The notes under the pieces: model-generated | Database searches by the model: none | Told to the model about the DNA's origin: nothing | Seen by the model: only the letters and a program-made list of their open reading frames with translations | Shown: positions 2,936-20,598 of the stretch, one piece after another | Numbering within the stretch: position 1 is the first letter of the stretch | Layout: each line of letters opens with the position of its first letter | Translations under genes and position numbers: made by a program | DNA from: Deltaproteobacteria bacterium | GTDB taxonomy: Bacteria > Desulfobacterota > DSM-4660 > Desulfatiglandales > HGW-15 | Assembly: GCA_019308985.1 (NCBI GenBank) | Contig: JAFDHB010000077.1 | Coordinates: 1 to 21,129, forward strand | Direction: 5' to 3' | Length of the DNA: 21,129 nt

Positions 2936-3823
2936 TTAGAGAAACCTGATGACCGGCTCTCCAATCGTGCCCTTGATGACGAACGGGAGTCTGCCCCCTT
3001 TCAACTGCTTCTTGATCGACCGCATAAACTCCTGGGATGTCTTCAGATCCTTGAACATATCACTGTAGGGCTCCAGGCTCCCCGCGAGGTCCAGGGCGCT
3101 CCGAAGGAAATCCCTGTTCAAGGACACCTGCCCCGACAAAGTTCCATGCATCTGTTGCCCTCTCAGATCAAGGTTGGCCAGCCTGATCTTGCGATCATTG
3201 AGGGTCGCCCTGAGTCGGATCTCATTGAAATCTATGGACTCAAGACCCAGGATCGGTCTTAACAGCGCGATTCGTCCCGCTTTGAGCCTGAGCTCTGCCT
3301 CACCCCTTCCCCCGGCCAAAAAGCCCGGCCGGCCCCTGTAGGTCACCTCTCCACCTAAGATGCCCTGAACATCTCTACCCGTAACCTTAACAATGGGGTT
3401 TTCGGGATCCAAACGGATACCTTCCAGGGTAACCGTCGTTGAAAAGGGCTCACCTGCGCTGCCATCCTTCAAAGCGGCGCATCCTTTGACAGAGCCATCA
3501 TAAAGAGAGCCCTCAAAACAGCCTTCCAATTGCCCTCGAAGAATGGACCATACTGCCGGCCGGATGAAAACCCTCTCTAGCTCGAGGACCGGCGAAGGCG
3601 GTTGCGTCTCTTGGACGATCTTCATGCCCTTGAATTCGACTCCGAACTTCAGGGATAGAGAGACCTCCCGGAGCGAGACGTGGATACCGGGCCTCAGGCC
3701 GCTGATCTTGGCCGAAATGAAATCCCGCGATGCTTCCGACGGAAAGCGATAGTACAAAAGCGCAAGGGTAAGGGCAACCCCGTAAAGGCAATAGCCAACC
3801 GATCTTCGCTGTATGCCCTTCAT
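2936..3823 (-). CDS. gspN: Type II secretion system protein GspN
   Basis: This 295-aa protein has an N-terminal membrane anchor (about residues 9-26, GYCLYGVALTLALLYY) followed by a beta-rich periplasmic region. The region resembles the GspN/AsmA-like fold: LDLAGSLEPYSDMFKDLK and a C-terminal GGRLPFVIKGTIGEPVIRF are characteristic of GspN in deltaproteobacteria. GspN is found in only some T2SS operons and its role is not settled. The ATG overlaps the gspM stop by 4 bases (ATGA), and the stop abuts gspC, placing it in the inner-membrane platform block. Family assignment rests on sequence style and position, so confidence is a little below that of the neighbouring genes. Confidence 0.85.
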   Translation of the reverse strand: MKGIQRRSVGYCLYGVALTLALLYYRFPSEASRDFISAKISGLRPGIHVSLREVSLSLKFGVEFKGMKIVQETQPPSPVLELERVFIRPAVWSILRGQLEGCFEGSLYDGSVKGCAALKDGSAGEPFSTTVTLEGIRLDPENPIVKVTGRDVQGILGGEVTYRGRPGFLAGGRGEAELRLKAGRIALLRPILGLESIDFNEIRLRATLNDRKIRLANLDLRGQQMHGTLSGQVSLNRDFLRSALDLAGSLEPYSDMFKDLKTSQEFMRSIKKQLKGGRLPFVIKGTIGEPVIRFL

Positions 3824-4383
3824 GTGCCTCTACTAACCCTCTTCTTGGCTTCTCCCTGGGCCTCCCCCGGAAGGAAAGTCAAGACCTGCATCACAACGTC
3901 AAGGTAGCCCGAATCCTTTTTGTTCTCTCTGATGGAAATCCTTTTCACGCTGACGACATCGTCCGGGTTCTCAATGCGGTAGAGGTATTCAACCAGCTTT
4001 GCGAGGGTTACGCCCTCGAGTTTCATCTCTACGACGGATTCCCTATAAGGACCCGCGATGTTCGAAGTGGAAGGCCGCATGTATTTTATGTGCCTCTTGA
4101 CGTCCGTCTCACCGGCCGCCCTCTCCAGGTAGGAAAAGAGGGTGAAATTCTTGGCCCGGCGAGCAAGGAACCGCTCCATGTTCCTGTTGTTTCTTTTGTG
4201 AGAGCGATACTCATTGCTCAATCTCAGTATCTCCTCCAGGCCCTTCTCCTTGACCTCTATCCCCCTCCTGATCCTTTTCCTCTCTTCAAGAAACGGGATA
4301 ATGAGCGCCTGAAGGACCAAAAAGAAGGAAAGGACCAATGCGCCAAAAATGATGAAATGTTTTTCTCGCCGCGCCAGTTTCAC
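3820..4383 (-). CDS. gspM: Type II secretion system protein GspM
   Basis: This 187-aa protein has the GspM layout. A short cytoplasmic N-terminus (MKLARREKHF) is followed by one membrane helix (about residues 11-30), a charged coiled-coil stretch (EERKRIRRGIEVKEKGLEEI) and a small ferredoxin-like periplasmic domain ending near residue 170. GspM pairs with GspL in the inner-membrane platform. The start is GTG at 4383; an in-frame TAA lies 27 bases upstream, so the gene cannot be extended far. It is separated from gspL by 189 bases, the only large gap in the operon, and that gap is filled by the palindromic element at 4415-4571. Without the element and its duplicated target, gspL and gspM would be 27 bases apart. 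Confidence 0.88.
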   Translation of the reverse strand: MKLARREKHFIIFGALVLSFFLVLQALIIPFLEERKRIRRGIEVKEKGLEEILRLSNEYRSHKRNNRNMERFLARRAKNFTLFSYLERAAGETDVKRHIKYMRPSTSNIAGPYRESVVEMKLEGVTLAKLVEYLYRIENPDDVVSVKRISIRENKKDSGYLDVVMQVLTFLPGEAQGEAKKRVSRGT

Positions 4384-4406
4384 TTTGCCACTCTCGCCCC
4401 TTGGTG

Positions 4407-4414
4407 ATTATTTC
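4407..4414. repeat. Left 8-bp target duplication of the MITE
   Basis: The bases ATTATTTC at 4407-4414 are repeated exactly at 4572-4579, immediately outside the inverted ends of the palindromic element. This is the expected footprint of a transposition event. Confidence 0.7.
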
Positions 4415-4571
4415 GTAACACTTTAGCCTTTTGAAATGCCTCCTCAGATAGGGAGAACGGGTGATGATGCCTTTTCTGGAGTGACTGGCGGGAGGGCGCC
4501 GTCTTTTCGCGACTTGTCAGTCGTCCATCACCGAGTTCTCTGAATCGCTTTTCAAACGGCTAAAATGTTAC
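4415..4571. mobile_element. MITE-like palindromic element with IS66-type ends
   Basis: The ends, read inward, are GTAACACTTTAGCCTTTTGA on the left and GTAACATTTTAGCCGTTTGA on the right. Over 24 bases the two ends match at 21. An exact 8-base direct repeat, ATTATTTC, flanks the element (4407-4414 and 4572-4579). The interior is also palindromic (GAGAACGGGTGATG near 4452 against GAGAACTCGGTGATG on the other strand), centred near GGCGCC at 4495-4500. No open frame of note is inside. GTAA ends with 8-base target duplications are known for the IS66 family, so I infer a non-autonomous IS66-type element. It landed at the gspL stop codon, whose TAA lies in the target duplication, so gspL is intact. 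Confidence 0.75.
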
Positions 4572-4579
4572 ATTATTTC
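4572..4579. repeat. Right 8-bp target duplication of the MITE
   Basis: This is the second copy of ATTATTTC. On the minus strand it reads GAAATAAT and includes the gspL stop codon TAA (4575-4573), which shows where the insertion hit the operon. Confidence 0.7.
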
Positions 4580-6060
4580 TTTCTCTCCATCTTTACCTCA
4601 AATTGAACCCGCTTGCCCGAGCGGTCCAGGTTGGCCGAAGAGATCACCACTTCCTTATAGAGAGGGCTAGACTCCAACCGACCCTTTATAGTGTCCACCG
4701 TATTGAATGTGTCTGTCTCTCCGCTGACACGAGCGTTTTCAGGGTTTATCACCATGGTGGTGAGGTGCACATCCATGGATTTAGGGATCCGCAGAGAGAT
4801 ATCCCTCAGGATGTCAATAACCTTGGCCTCGGAGTCGCCCCCGGGAAGCAAGACCGAGGATCCTTTCACTTCATTCAAGGCAATTTTCATCTGTTTGAGG
4901 GGATCCACAACCCTGCTCGCCTCCGGAAAGGTCTCCCTGTAGACCTCTGTTATCTTCTCCTCCAGCACCTCGTGTCTCTTTTTCATGAGATGGTAATCAA
5001 CACCCAGATCGGCCATAAGGAAACACGCGACGAGGGCCAGGGCCAGGGAGACCTTTCGTATTCCCCTTCCCAGACCAGAATATGGGCCCTTGGTCTCGAA
5101 CTCGTCCTTCAGAAGATTGAGACCCGCCTCCCTCCTTTCTTCGCGCAGGGCAAGGGCAAGGGCATGATCCATGGACAGGGGGTTCCAGGCCTCGGCTATC
5201 TTCTTGTCCATGGTAACCCTTTTATCCCGGCGGACATTTATCTGTTCCACGGGAAGGTCAAAGAAACGGCCGATCATCTCTCCTGCCCCTGGGATGGCCC
5301 CATCCCCTGCCACAAAGATCTTCCGGGGATTTGATGCGCTTTTATTGGCGCACTTGAAGGCATGCATCGTGTTTTGAATATCTCTGCAAAGGAATTCCAT
5401 GCGAGAGGCCAATTGCTTGGGAGTTGCGGTGTCTGGCCCAGAATCTCCATCACCCCGAGGGGAGGGGTCACTCTTGAGAGGCAATGAGCGAACCAAGCTG
5501 ATGCGCCTCCTCAAGAAGAATACCATGGTTGCCCTCCTGAATCCGATATCCAGGAGGAGCCCGTCGCCAGGTGTGGCTTGCCGCTTCAGGAGCCAGGAGA
5601 CCAAAGGGAAACCCCGGATCTCTAGCAAATCAGGCTCAATACCATAGGCCTTTAACCTTCCCAAAGATTCCTTTATATAGTCCTTCCTCAACGAAACGGC
5701 CAGGATCTCGCTCTGCTCGGCCCTGTCGGTGACCAGGAAATCAACCACCACTTCGTCGACGGGAAAGGGGATCATGGACTCGACCTCGAAAGGGAGGGTT
5801 TGTTTGATTTTCTTCACCTCCCTGAAGGGCATTTGGAGGTTTCTGTAAGAGGCCTGATCCGCCGGGATGGTCACTCGATAGATATCGCTCGCGAGATCCA
5901 TGCCCCGGGAGATATCTTGAAGGGCCGCCTCCCAGCTGCCTTCCCCCTCTGCCACGGCATGGGCGCATGACAGGACGCGGTATCCCTTCAGCCCGCTCTG
6001 CACCTGCACCGCTGAAACGGAATCATGGTCGATATCCAGGCAAAGGAGCTTTCCCGGCAT
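4573..6060 (-). CDS. gspL: Type II secretion system protein GspL
   Basis: From the ATG at 6060 the protein has 495 residues. I prefer this start over the longer frame from 6129 because AGGT sits 5 bases upstream and the protein then begins MPGKLLCLDIDHDSVSAVQV, the first strand of the actin-like (PilM-type) fold. The cytoplasmic domain covers about residues 1-300, with GDGLLLDIG near 165-173 and IFVAGDGAIPGAG near 248-260. A PilN-like NLLKDEF motif (315-321), a membrane helix (about 337-353) and a ferredoxin-like periplasmic domain follow. GspL links the GspE ATPase to GspM and the platform. It starts 11 bases after the gspK stop. Its stop codon lies inside the target duplication of the element at 4415-4571. 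Confidence 0.9.
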   Translation of the reverse strand: MPGKLLCLDIDHDSVSAVQVQSGLKGYRVLSCAHAVAEGEGSWEAALQDISRGMDLASDIYRVTIPADQASYRNLQMPFREVKKIKQTLPFEVESMIPFPVDEVVVDFLVTDRAEQSEILAVSLRKDYIKESLGRLKAYGIEPDLLEIRGFPLVSWLLKRQATPGDGLLLDIGFRRATMVFFLRRRISLVRSLPLKSDPSPRGDGDSGPDTATPKQLASRMEFLCRDIQNTMHAFKCANKSASNPRKIFVAGDGAIPGAGEMIGRFFDLPVEQINVRRDKRVTMDKKIAEAWNPLSMDHALALALREERREAGLNLLKDEFETKGPYSGLGRGIRKVSLALALVACFLMADLGVDYHLMKKRHEVLEEKITEVYRETFPEASRVVDPLKQMKIALNEVKGSSVLLPGGDSEAKVIDILRDISLRIPKSMDVHLTTMVINPENARVSGETDTFNTVDTIKGRLESSPLYKEVVISSANLDRSGKRVQFEVKMERKK

Positions 6061-6070
6061 GGCACCTGCC

Positions 6071-7066
6071 CTAGTCCGCCTTCCAAGAGAGGACTTCAAC
6101 GGCGTTCTTTCCCCTCGCCACAAATCCAACGCACTGCTTTTGCATCCTGTCCTTGAAGGCCTCCACCTTTATCTCGAAGATAAGGCTCGAGGTCGTAATC
6201 CGATCGTCAATGGCAACCTCGCTGCTCATCTGGGGCACCTTCTTGTACCATCCCGGCTGGCTGATATCGTTGTCCTCGTTGCTGCGATAGGCAATCATCT
6301 CTTCCACCATCTCCCTGTCCAGGTCTTTTGACAGGGCCATGAGCACCAGGGGTTCTGCCGTGTTGATGTTTATTTTTCCATTTCCCCAGGCAGTCAGATA
6401 ATCGAAGATCCCGGGCCTGTCCTTTGTCCCGTAGAATAGCTCTTTCGTGATCCCTCTAACCAGGAGAAGCTCTTCGAGGGAATCGATCGGTCCGTTCTTG
6501 CAGGCATAGGGTCGTTCCAAGCCCTTGTAATAGGAATCCTCCGCACCGAACCTGGTCACTTCCCCGTCCGGGTCCAGCCAATCCTTGATGGCATCGATGA
6601 TATTCTCCACCTCATCCGGCTCCAAGGCAAACTCTTCGGAACTCAGGAGCCGGGAAAGCATCGCCTTCTGCACCGGATCGTAAGCCCCCTTCTTGTCGCC
6701 CTCGGCATAAACCAATTGATTGATCTGTATCCTGCCGGAGTGGTCGATGATCCTGAGGCGAAATCCTCCCTCCGTGAACATTCCTTCCGACCATTCCTCA
6801 AGGAGCCCGGGGTCGGCCCAGTCTTCCTCTAGGGAATCAAATCCTGTTCTCTTCCCGTCATCATAGAGGACTGCCATGGCATAGTGCAACCCCGACATCG
6901 CAAGATATCTCAGGCTTACGCCATCCTTGAGATTGACCGCTGCCTGGAGCTCTGACCTCATGGAGGAGTTGAGCTCCAGGCTCACCACCACGATGAGACT
7001 AATGATCAGCAGGGTCAGAATCAAGGCAAAGCCATCCCTGTTTTTATGAAACCTTTCCGCCTGCAC
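6071..7066 (-). CDS. gspK: Type II secretion minor pseudopilin GspK
   Basis: The 331-aa product has a prepilin-type N-terminus, RDGFALILTLLIISLIVVVS, with cleavage expected between G and F. It lacks the glutamate at position +5 of the mature protein, as is usual for GspK, the pseudopilus tip. The large C-terminal domain has the GspK features: ENIIDAIKDWLDPDGE, a run on NININTAEPLVLMAL, and YRSNEDNDIS. The start is GTG at 7066, overlapping gspJ by 23 bases, with GGGGG about 8 bases upstream. GspK forms a tip complex with GspI and GspJ, both encoded directly upstream. Confidence 0.93.
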   Translation of the reverse strand: MQAERFHKNRDGFALILTLLIISLIVVVSLELNSSMRSELQAAVNLKDGVSLRYLAMSGLHYAMAVLYDDGKRTGFDSLEEDWADPGLLEEWSEGMFTEGGFRLRIIDHSGRIQINQLVYAEGDKKGAYDPVQKAMLSRLLSSEEFALEPDEVENIIDAIKDWLDPDGEVTRFGAEDSYYKGLERPYACKNGPIDSLEELLLVRGITKELFYGTKDRPGIFDYLTAWGNGKININTAEPLVLMALSKDLDREMVEEMIAYRSNEDNDISQPGWYKKVPQMSSEVAIDDRITTSSLIFEIKVEAFKDRMQKQCVGFVARGKNAVEVLSWKAD

Positions 7067-16597: not shown

Positions 16598-16891
16598 GTG
16601 AGGAAAAAACAAGAAAAGGATAAAGTATGGAAAGATTACTATGATCGGAGAAACATTCTGGATGAAATCTCGGATGAGGCGGTGGACTTTACCCTTGAAG
16701 GTGATCTTCGGGAGGAAATCCTTTCAGGTAAACGAAAAAGAAAGCTCAAGAACGTTACAATCAAGATAGATCCCTTGCAAATTGTGGCCATTAAGAAGCT
16801 CTCCAATATGAAATCGATCCCATACCAGACGCTTATACGGCATTGGCTGGCCGAAGGGATTAAGAACGAAATGGATCTAGTGCTGAAATAG
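16598..16891 (+). CDS. Ribbon-helix-helix (CopG/BrnA-type) antitoxin
   Basis: This 97-aa protein starts at GTG 16598 with AGGGG about 8 bases upstream. The N-terminal half is charged and probably disordered (EKDKVWKDYYDRRNILDEIS) and would wrap the toxin. The C-terminal half, about residues 50-92, is a ribbon-helix-helix DNA-binding domain: a strand NVTIKIDPLQIVAI followed by IPYQTLIRHWLAEGI. It is the expected partner of the BrnT toxin just upstream and probably represses the promoter at 16268-16296. The order toxin then antitoxin is normal for brnTA. Its last 32 bases overlap the end of the integrase remnant on the other strand. Confidence 0.85.
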   Translation: MRKKQEKDKVWKDYYDRRNILDEISDEAVDFTLEGDLREEILSGKRKRKLKNVTIKIDPLQIVAIKKLSNMKSIPYQTLIRHWLAEGIKNEMDLVLK

Positions 16892-17090: not shown

Positions 17091-17151
17091 AACGCTAAAG
17101 ATTGTAAACGGAGTTGAGCGCAGCGAAATTCCGGTTACAATCTTTAGCGTT
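17091..17151. repeat. Long stem-loop between integrase remnant and ORF6N gene
   Basis: The arms are AACGCTAAAGATTGTAA (17091-17107) and its exact complement TTACAATCTTTAGCGTT (17135-17151), a 17-base perfect match. The match continues inward as ACGG against CCGG with one mismatch. The loop, GAGTTGAGCGCAGCGAAATT, has no obvious further pairing. It ends 28 bases before the ORF6N start. It could be an interspersed palindromic repeat, an operator for the downstream gene, or the edge of a mobile unit. Confidence 0.75.
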
Positions 17152-17179
17152 TACCAACCTACATGAAGGGAGCGTAAAC

Positions 17180-17707
17180 ATGCCATCTATTGTGCCGATA
17201 GAAAGGATCACCGGCAAGATATACCTCATTCGAGGAACGAGAGTCATGCTTGATCGCGACCTCGCCGAACTTTACGGGGTCAAGACCAAAGCATTGAAGC
17301 AGGCAGTGCGGAGGAATATCAAGCGCTTTCCCGAAGACTTCATGTTTGAGCTTACGAAAGAGGAATTCGCCGATTGGAGGTCACAATTTGTGACCTCCAA
17401 TCGTGACAGGATGGGCCTGAGGTACCCCCCTATGGTCTTTACGGAACAAGGGGTCGCTATGCTTTCATCGGTTCTCAACAGCGATAGGGCCATTGAAGTC
17501 AACATCGCGATTATGAGGGCCTTCATGCGCCTCCGCCAAATGCTCTCGACACATGAAGAGTTGAAAAGGAAAATCGAAGACATGGAGGCGAAATACGACA
17601 GTCAATTCAGGGTCGTATTCGAAGCAATAAAGCAGCTCATAGAGACTGAAGACAAGCCCAGAAGGAAGATCGGCTTTCAAGTCAAGAACAAGAAAGACAT
17701 CCAGTAG
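17180..17707 (+). CDS. ORF6N-domain DNA-binding protein
   Basis: From ATG 17180 the product has 175 residues, with AGGGAG 7 bases upstream; a longer frame from 17114 would run through the stem-loop and lacks a ribosome site. The ORF6N domain covers about residues 8-100: [52 protein letters not shown] and [21 protein letters not shown] coiled coil follows (about 110-150) and then a basic tail. ORF6N domains occur in phage and mobile-element proteins and are thought to bind DNA. The coding region contains a perfect 33-bp palindrome at 17371-17403. The gene stands alone after the integrase remnant, fitting a phage-derived origin. Confidence 0.88.
17371..17403. repeat. Perfect 33-bp palindrome inside the ORF6N gene
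   Basis: The arm CGATTGGAGGTCACAA (17371-17386) and its exact complement (17388-17403) surround a single T. It encodes [11 protein letters not shown], the most conserved motif of the ORF6N domain. Confidence 0.9.
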
Positions 17708-19578: not shown

Positions 19579-19853
19579 CCTATTCACACAACTGCGGTAA
19601 GCCTTTCTCAAATCGGGTGAAAGCGGTAAGAGGTATAATGTTTCTGAATCTGTATTCCATTTCTTGGTTCAGGTGGAAGCAAGGTTTCTGGGCTAACTAC
19701 GGGCTCCCTCCGTATCACCTTCTCCCGGAAATAGCTAACTTTGGGGGCAATGGCAAACCGGGAATTTTAATTGCCGCTGGGGGAAAAAATTGTTGACGTC
19801 AGTCACCTGAGGCTCCACCGCCACCAGGATTCTCATCTGAGGTGTGATCTGGA
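19579..19853. other. Intergenic stretch without an assignable gene
   Basis: Between the inverted-repeat element and the IS66-associated remnant I see no gene I can support. A plus-strand frame ending at 19796 has a protein-like stretch (WKQGFWANYGLPPYHLLPEI) but begins inside the inverted-repeat element and has no ribosome site. It may be debris of a disrupted gene. Confidence 0.4.
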
Positions 19854-20263
19854 TCATGACTTGCGGCTCAAGAAACCACGGATCATCGCCACCGGATCGG
19901 GATGGAGGCTCTGGCTTTGGAAGGTCATCTTCATCGTGGCGCCCGAAGCATTGCTGAGCTATACCACGCACGTAGAAGATATAGCCAGTGCAGGGATCTC
20001 TACAAAGCACGCGGGGGTTGGCTGCTGCATTTGCGTCTCCTGAGTCGCGGCGGCGTACCGTCGCTTTAACTCCGTGTAGTTGAGGCTAAGGCCCTCGACA
20101 CCTCACAGATGGAATGGACACCGCACAGATCCACCGCGGCCGCCCATAGGGATTTGGGAATCCGGCTGCCGGCCATCCTGCGCTTACGCCAGATCTCGAA
20201 TCGGGTCAGGACTTCTTGCAAGGCGGGCTTCTGTATGGTGGGCACTACAGAGAGCTTTTCCAT
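19854..20263 (-). pseudogene. Broken IS66-associated accessory ORF (TnpA-type)
   Basis: The minus strand starts at ATG 20263, with AAGGAGG 8 to 9 bases upstream, and reads RFEIWRKRRMAGSRIPKSLW then DLCGVHSICEVSRAL. This is the pattern of the small helix-turn-helix-like ORF at the head of IS66-family elements. After VSRAL the frame breaks (near 20081-20091, a one-base deletion fits) and continues in the next frame as LNYTELKRRYAA and FVEIPALA. A TAG stop at 19961-19959 follows, then SNASGATMKMTFQSQSL and PDPVAMIRGFLSRKS, the usual C-terminal part, ending at TGA 19854. tnpB and the tnpC transposase are absent. A GTAAGC on the minus strand at 20336 could be the old left end. The gene is clearly dead. 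Confidence 0.8.
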
Positions 20264-20451
20264 CGGCCATTCCTCCTTCGTTACTGGAATGGGCCAGTAC
20301 TACCGCAATCCCAATGGCTATGTCATGCATGCTTACCGGAAGGACACGTTTAATTATGAATCTGCGCCCCCGGAACAGGTGGGAGGGACCCCTTTCTAGA
20401 ATTCAAGCTTTGGCCCTCTGTGTTTTTGCGTCACCAACTTGGGTTTGGATC
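20264..20451. other. Intergenic stretch with possible gene debris
   Basis: No complete gene is seen. A plus-strand frame ending in TAG at 20399 reads MGQYYRNPNGYVMHAYRKDT near its end, which looks protein-like and may be the tail of a gene cut by the IS66 remnant. The stop of the small membrane-protein gene on the minus strand bounds the right side. Confidence 0.3.
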
Positions 20452-20598
20452 TTAGTTGTTATTCCTTTTCCTCTGCTTAAGAATTAGATAGACTCCAACA
20501 ACTCCGATGGCGAAACCAAGGGGTTTTAATGGGAGAGTGTTTGTTGCAATATTTATCCAAATCGCGAATAGTATTAAAACAAGTCCAAGCACCAGCAT
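20452..20598 (-). CDS. 48-aa membrane protein next to Rhs tip, possible immunity protein
   Basis: This short gene starts at ATG 20598 with GAGG 7 to 8 bases upstream and ends at TAA 20452. The product has two hydrophobic segments, MLVLGLVLILFAIWI (residues 1-15) and LGFAIGVVGVYLIL (27-40), joined by a short polar turn and followed by a basic tail, KQRKRNNN. It is a two-helix membrane protein with the tail predicted in the cytoplasm. It begins 33 bases after the Rhs tip stop, on the same strand, which is where the immunity gene of a polymorphic toxin normally lies. That role is an inference from position only; I recognise no family. Its base composition is AT-rich like the Rhs tip and unlike the secretion operon. 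Confidence 0.55.
   Translation of the reverse strand: MLVLGLVLILFAIWINIATNTLPLKPLGFAIGVVGVYLILKQRKRNNN

Follow-up and report, generated by a model that had tools for sequence, protein, structure and literature searches.

A MITE at the gspL–gspM junction belongs to a mobile family whose conserved, folding core is shared with differently ended repeats

The RUP and Correia/NEMIS elements are MITEs, that is, short, non-coding sequences with terminal repeats and target duplications that occur in many intergenic copies and yield stem-loop transcripts, as described in PMC2229807. The element analysed here shares their shortness, lack of coding sequence, terminal repeats, duplications and copy number, but its interior is conserved across genera and families and is found with several terminus types. 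ERIC/IRU is a 127-bp intergenic palindrome that is kept across genera and has one end type with TA termini; an orientation-dependent effect on mRNA stability, exerted through RNA structure, has been proposed for it (PMC2229807). The likeness to ERIC/IRU lies in the cross-genus conservation of an intergenic palindrome, whereas our type a elements have 8-bp duplications, a core common to several backbones, and an even orientation. REPs measure 20–40 bp (PMC3733652), in contrast to a core of 160 nt that is branched and co-varies; together with REP-targeting insertion sequences, they resemble the present family in that palindromes act as gathering sites of mobile DNA (PMC1525189).

SINEs are structured cores spread on borrowed mobility, and the present repeats are similar in both respects, although they have DNA-transposon-like ends and duplications, and no cellular RNA parent emerged in Rfam scans. 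MITEs are usually taken as shrunken transposons with an unimportant middle. In the present family, the middle is conserved and the ends vary, so that the middle calls for a testable function. What is new here is a conserved core used with different ends, a description of which was not found in the accessible text of the open-access literature searched.

The element at the gspL–gspM junction

The element was found in a 21,129-nt stretch of DNA (hereafter, the window). The features of the insertion and its neighbouring genes were as follows.

3820–4383, − strand: gspM, GTG start (ORF; weak Pfam T2SSM; same position in relatives)
4407–4414, no strand: left 8-bp target duplication ATTATTTC (sequence; exact duplications in 8/8 two-ended type a copies)
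4415–4571, + strand (the core sense strand): element, a MITE copy of 157 bp with type a ends, probably shortened inside
4415–4438, + strand: left terminal inverted repeat, motif GTAACAYTTTAGCC (sequence)
4439–4464, + strand: left outer arm (comparison with locus L012, in which the core model begins at element position 51)
4465–4521, + strand: conserved core, left half only, the remainder being absent in the window (identity to copies in genome G001)
4522–4547, + strand: right outer arm, directly abutting the left half-core (G001 contig C164 has 60 extra interior bases before 4522)
4548–4571, − strand: right terminal inverted repeat (sequence)
4572–4579, no strand: right 8-bp duplication ATTATTTC, containing the gspL stop codon (sequence, ORF coordinates)
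4573–6129, − strand: gspL, stop codon 4573–4575 (ORF; Pfam T2SSL above cut-off; relatives fetched)

The T2SSM score of gspM (24.3 bits) was below the Pfam cut-off of 27.8 bits. The sequence bore out the preliminary description of an insertion with 24-bp ends and an exact 8-bp duplication: the ends form a 24-bp inverted repeat with 21/24 identities, and inverted-repeat detection returned end arms of 25 nt with 88% complementarity. The gspL stop codon had been placed at the insertion, and it does fall in the right repeat. No ORF of ≥80 aa was present inside the window element. The gspL–gspM spacer is 189 nt long (4384–4572), and subtracting 165 leaves 24 nt by coordinates; the 27 bp given earlier for the excised junction is obtained when the stop codon is counted. 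In structure prediction, 4407–4579 folded as RNA at −65.3 kcal/mol (z −5.19), and none of 200 shuffles equalled it.

The length of 157 bp is correct as read in the window but is probably not the true length, because the same junction holds 60 more interior bases in G001, the closest genome, which contains 100% of the window's sampled words. The G001 assembly comprises 5.1 Mb in 420 contigs and is 91% complete. In G001, the junction is split over two contigs; C190 stops at element position 107, and C164 opens with the 60 interior bases absent from the window. Full copies measure approximately 288 bp (107 + 130 + 51, from C345 and C254). A copy of 287 bp (L155) was assembled through without such an internal deletion, and many other through-assembled copies showed internal deletions of varied size (L001, L014, L019, L022, L145, L146, and L157). 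Judging from these sequences, the window copy is probably collapsed internally, and its 157 bp would reflect either sequence joined wrongly during assembly or a deletion truly present in a different strain. Both this shortening and the widely shared core were missed in the preliminary description. Many G001 contigs end inside these repeats; since repeats break short-read assemblies, insertions like that in the window may be hidden or their length misread.

The exact position between gspL and gspM and the strong fold would also suit a regulatory RNA that is a fixed part of the secretion operon. Twenty gspL loci were fetched, 19 of them from relatives, with both gspL and gspM readable. In these 19 relatives, gspM lay −4 to 505 nt past gspL, and four spacers exceeded 300 nt and contained other DNA. 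The element (by BLAST), its ends and the core model were all absent from the 19 fetched loci. This comparison, which had been suggested at the outset, does not favour a fixed RNA; given, in addition, the many copies elsewhere with target duplications and the missing half of the core in the window, we regard that explanation as very improbable.

Mobility of the family and the search for a mobiliser

The left part of the element was found at no fewer than 40 places in G001 (BLAST, best 40 of 160 candidates), and the end motif GTAACAYTTTAGCC gave 146 matches there with up to one mismatch, compared with 2 for the reversed control. Eight of the fetched type a copies, that of the window among them, could be matched at both ends; all eight had exact 8-bp duplications, each different from the others, although one was a single base off that of the window. 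Two further duplications were recognised by eye, one exact (L022) and one with one mismatch (L155). The search for further copies with other 8-bp duplications, run in G001, thus succeeded, and the earlier designation as a MITE held. The element family is mobile and non-autonomous, and the window copy is inserted at the end of gspL, where insertion would have generated the 8-bp duplication. In a genome from another family, 77 bases agree fully with the end type of the window (L031, G069:C179:38–114), reflecting either recent transfer or contamination.

GTAA ends with 8-bp duplications are the rule for IS66-family elements. The window element has GTAA tips and an 8-bp duplication and is, in these respects, like the IS66 family and its derived MITEs, from which it differs in that its ends were matched to no IS66 element. 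The IS66 transposase (PF03050) had no match in G001 (91% complete), nor in G065 and G063, which carry a sister end type; it was present in three of the ten genomes searched (G007, G042, and G067). Hence, the ends and duplications fit the IS66 link proposed earlier, but IS66 as the mobiliser was not supported. The broken IS66-associated ORF reported at 19854–20263 was not borne out either, as the pieces at 19735–20487 had no Pfam match and three had no NCBIfam match.

An autonomous partner with matching ends was not found in the carrier genomes, whose assemblies break at repeats; in G065, some pairs of type e ends enclose long frames. Two candidates were rejected: type a ends with another interior proved to be a second palindromic MITE, and at L033 and L034, which are orthologous loci, the supposed transposase gene beside the element gave way to neighbouring genes that by eye look thiolase- and acyl-CoA-dehydrogenase-like. 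The transposase would be expected to act on the GTAACA ends.

A conserved core in repeats with different ends

When the window element was searched in 99 relatives, 35 matched, mostly only within positions ~45–107, and the matched loci shared a conserved unit of ~160 nt in unlike surroundings. In the full element, this core would be flanked on each side by an outer arm that ends in a terminal repeat. In 28 chosen core copies, the mean column identity was 75%, and the consensus fold had 55 pairs, 23 of them with double changes. A covariance model (R1) matched at least 43 of 85 genomes of the order (best 32 or fewer candidates per genome) and at least 12 of the 30 best assemblies, spanning five of the six families. 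In a sample of the phylum, it matched at least 13 of 395 genomes (best 7 candidates per genome). Seven of these lay outside the order, five with E < 1e-20 and two with weaker values (1.8e-10 in G427 and 6.7e-5 in G095). The core thus appears to have spread among differently ended repeats in one Desulfobacterota order and thinly beyond it. R1 gave no hit on the window copy at E 0.01, because half of the core is absent there; the link to the core is provided by window element positions 1–107, which are 100% identical to G001 copies, and by other G001 copies of full length.

Scanning named genomes with a core pattern yielded 53 stretches. By title, 52 came from MAGs called deltaproteobacterial or desulfobacterial, and one came from a Bathyarchaeota MAG. 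The core in the latter contig (JAOZHM010000179.1, L108) resembles desulfobacterial MAG cores, and its filing is probably a binning error. In Rfam 15 scans of the window and 13 loci, no match within the cores reached the gathering score; MIR839 scored 29 bits over one core, against a cut-off of 200. Searches of phage and plasmid records with a single core sequence, and of viral contigs with a single core pattern, gave no match.

The same core lies within at least six terminus types, the boundaries of which were read largely by eye.

Type a: GTAACAYTTTAGCC (G001)
Type b: TTACTACTGGGAGCA (G007; variants in G041, G047, and G053, from another family)
Type b2: GTAACGTTCAAAAGTG (G007)
Type d: two hairpins, CCCACGGGC..CCCGTGG, without inverted ends (G042 and G068)
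Type e: GTAAYAGCTCARTAA (G063, G065, G067, and G038)
Type f: AGGCTGTTGCCCAA (G033, which also has another type)
Type i: TATTAACGGYCTC (G167)

Types a, b2, and e have a GTAAY tip in common. For type e, 8-bp duplications with up to one mismatch were found in 6 of 27 copies and in none of 702 mismatched pairings, and 28 copies of types b, b2, f, and i showed no 8–9 bp duplications. The MITE load of G065 is extreme, with 575 matches to the type e terminal repeat in 3.1 Mb (control, 1). Many short copies of 121–128 bp were also observed in this genome, with the core interior lost through differing deletions. In one type b arm (L189), there are short tandem repeats of ~17 bp.

Exchange between cores and ends was evident in two ways. 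Backbone b of G007 bears two core variants, the second being the variant of backbone b2, as in L184, where b ends stand on either side of a backbone-b2 core variant. Conversely, type a ends flank a different palindrome without a core match in G001 (L365, L370, and L381), and diverged type a ends do so in G010 (L376, L377, and L379). Two core variants on one backbone and type a ends on another interior mean that core and ends are separable. In nine elements of different types, the cores were 85.9% alike on average and the arms 77.1% (by a gap-tolerant measure that gave 77.8% for shuffled arms). The second palindromic MITE is ~277 bp long with the motif CTCAGCAATCTCTTT (L376:4126–4402 and L377:3070–3348) and has weak matches in G006; its interior may be a second conserved core.

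With mobility, a shared core, co-variation, and separability each demonstrated, the reading we prefer, with moderate confidence, is a MITE with a separable, folding core module that also travels in differently ended repeats and is kept for the carrier's benefit. Recombination between cores would shift variants among backbones; against this reading, the exchange of cores could be explained by gene conversion. Gene conversion is also central to a quite unlikely alternative, namely, one old MITE lineage whose ends diverged or were replaced, whose middle was homogenised, and whose fold is a by-product of its palindromic origin. Cores are indeed alike within a genome, the G007 chimaeras show exchange, and the GTAAY tip is common to types a, b2, and e. 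However, types b, d, f, and i have no ends in common with a, strand-asymmetric wobble pairs occur in the fitted alignment, and distant cores keep their helices paired with other letters while their unpaired motifs stay constant (G167, G217, G375, and G446).

The arrangement of arms and core also bears on a rather unlikely scheme of nested palindromes, in which the core is an old mobile element that entered palindromic repeats centrally, at their hairpin loop, the end types being its hosts. In many types, the core is centred between arms whose pairing extends to its very edge, small palindromes occupy the core's own loops (L042, L045, L069, and L088), type b elements of G007 lie within a further inverted repeat (L086, L184, and L186), and REPs are known as targets of insertion sequences (PMC1525189). 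Nevertheless, no clean pre-insertion backbone was found, and no target signature was seen at the core's own edges. L181, which lacks the core, and the short copies of type e have the look of deletion products. The further inverted repeat, GAGTGACGAGTAACAAGT .. ACTTGTCACTCGTGACTCG, surrounds the type b elements L086, L111, L184, and L186 (G007/G100). Small hairpin insertions in core loops were likewise observed in G001 (L116, L120, L121, L125, L127, and L131), where one subfamily has its core side hairpin extended by CTTCCGGCTTGGAGAGCCTCCAGCTCGGAAAGGAGG.

Structure and possible role of the core

In an alignment of 55 distinct sequences, which was fitted to the model and leans towards its fold, 96.9% of cells pair, compared with 41.5–54.4% for slid partners. 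Double changes were found at 40 of the 55 pairs (shuffles 24.4, sd 2.2) and in 414 cells (shuffles 99, sd 11), and none of 500 shuffles, which take no account of relatedness, reached any of the five covariation measures. Helix 1 is fully variable yet paired in 95.6% of cells. A point against the preferred reading is that palindromes can co-vary through self-templated repair. At orthologous insertion sites, for which three genome sets yielded two usable pairs (both G037/G027), one of the 175 core positions had changed at the first site and six at the second (7/350). The flanks had changed at 123/2517 and 87/1200 positions, the outermost 661+ segments of the second site being excluded as more diverged; approximately 21 core changes were expected, against the 7 observed. 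Gene conversion would equally give such slow change.

Cells with G-U numbered 157 and those with A-C 23 (118 and 22 without one constant U-G pair). At pairs predicted on both strands, the ratio of G-U to A-C was 68 to 15 in the fitted alignment A3, but the unfitted A2 lacked a wobble bias there (12 to 11); its sense-only pairs gave 82 to 16. The fold of the sense strand was the more stable in 56 of 57 cores, which is partly a composition effect, as shuffles of L103 likewise folded better on that strand. Under these models, the asymmetry of wobble pairs and folding suggests a single active strand, which may act as RNA. The core would be pictured as a separate module forming a long branched hairpin, better folded on one strand.

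The one-strand signal is equally valid for DNA. A core acting as single-stranded DNA, for example as a replication-exposed hairpin that binds a transposition or replication protein, would make orientation to genes immaterial, and type d, with two terminal hairpins and no inverted ends, looks by eye like elements moved as single strands. We consider this unlikely, given that types a and e carry 8-bp duplications such as double-strand transposases leave and that there is no known binding protein; RNA would be the likelier active form.

The relation to genes was even. In 55 copies (12 others were dropped for want of a clear ORF on one side), the core was oriented in the same direction as the flanking frames in 16, opposite in 16, between convergent frames in 14, and between divergent frames in 9; a bias of orientation was thus rejected. 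A script that looks at core-crossing frames found no open frame through the core in the 55 copies. With even orientation and no such frame, a role of the core in serving neighbouring genes is unlikely; against the preferred reading, half of the copies would be transcribed antisense. This applies to the window, where the operon is read from the − strand but the core has its sense on the + strand, so that the operon mRNA would carry an antisense half-core.

On the operon strand, the element contained no terminator-like site. A promoter-like match (9/12) at 4435–4407 (−), built from the left end and the duplication, points at gspM; two such sites were found in the 601 bases scanned, against 0.5 expected. 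From the sequence, the effect of the element on gspM is expected to be modest at most, and a local effect on the operon gained after insertion is possible.

Under the preferred reading of a core module kept for its carrier, retention would come from helping the carrier to spread or persist, rather than from serving adjacent genes; for example, read-through transcripts might be given a defined structure that is processed or protected. More tentatively, and at somewhat less than even likelihood, the core may be a passenger module, a structured RNA or single-strand hairpin, found across the phylum and shared by repeats of different mobility classes. It would then be a bacterial counterpart of SINE cores, maintained by selection for itself, passing from one backbone to another, and reaching dozens of copies in a genome.

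Elsewhere in the window, a CopG-antitoxin-like protein (16598–16891, below the Pfam cut-off) and an ORF6N-domain protein (17114–17707) are encoded near a tRNA-Met gene.
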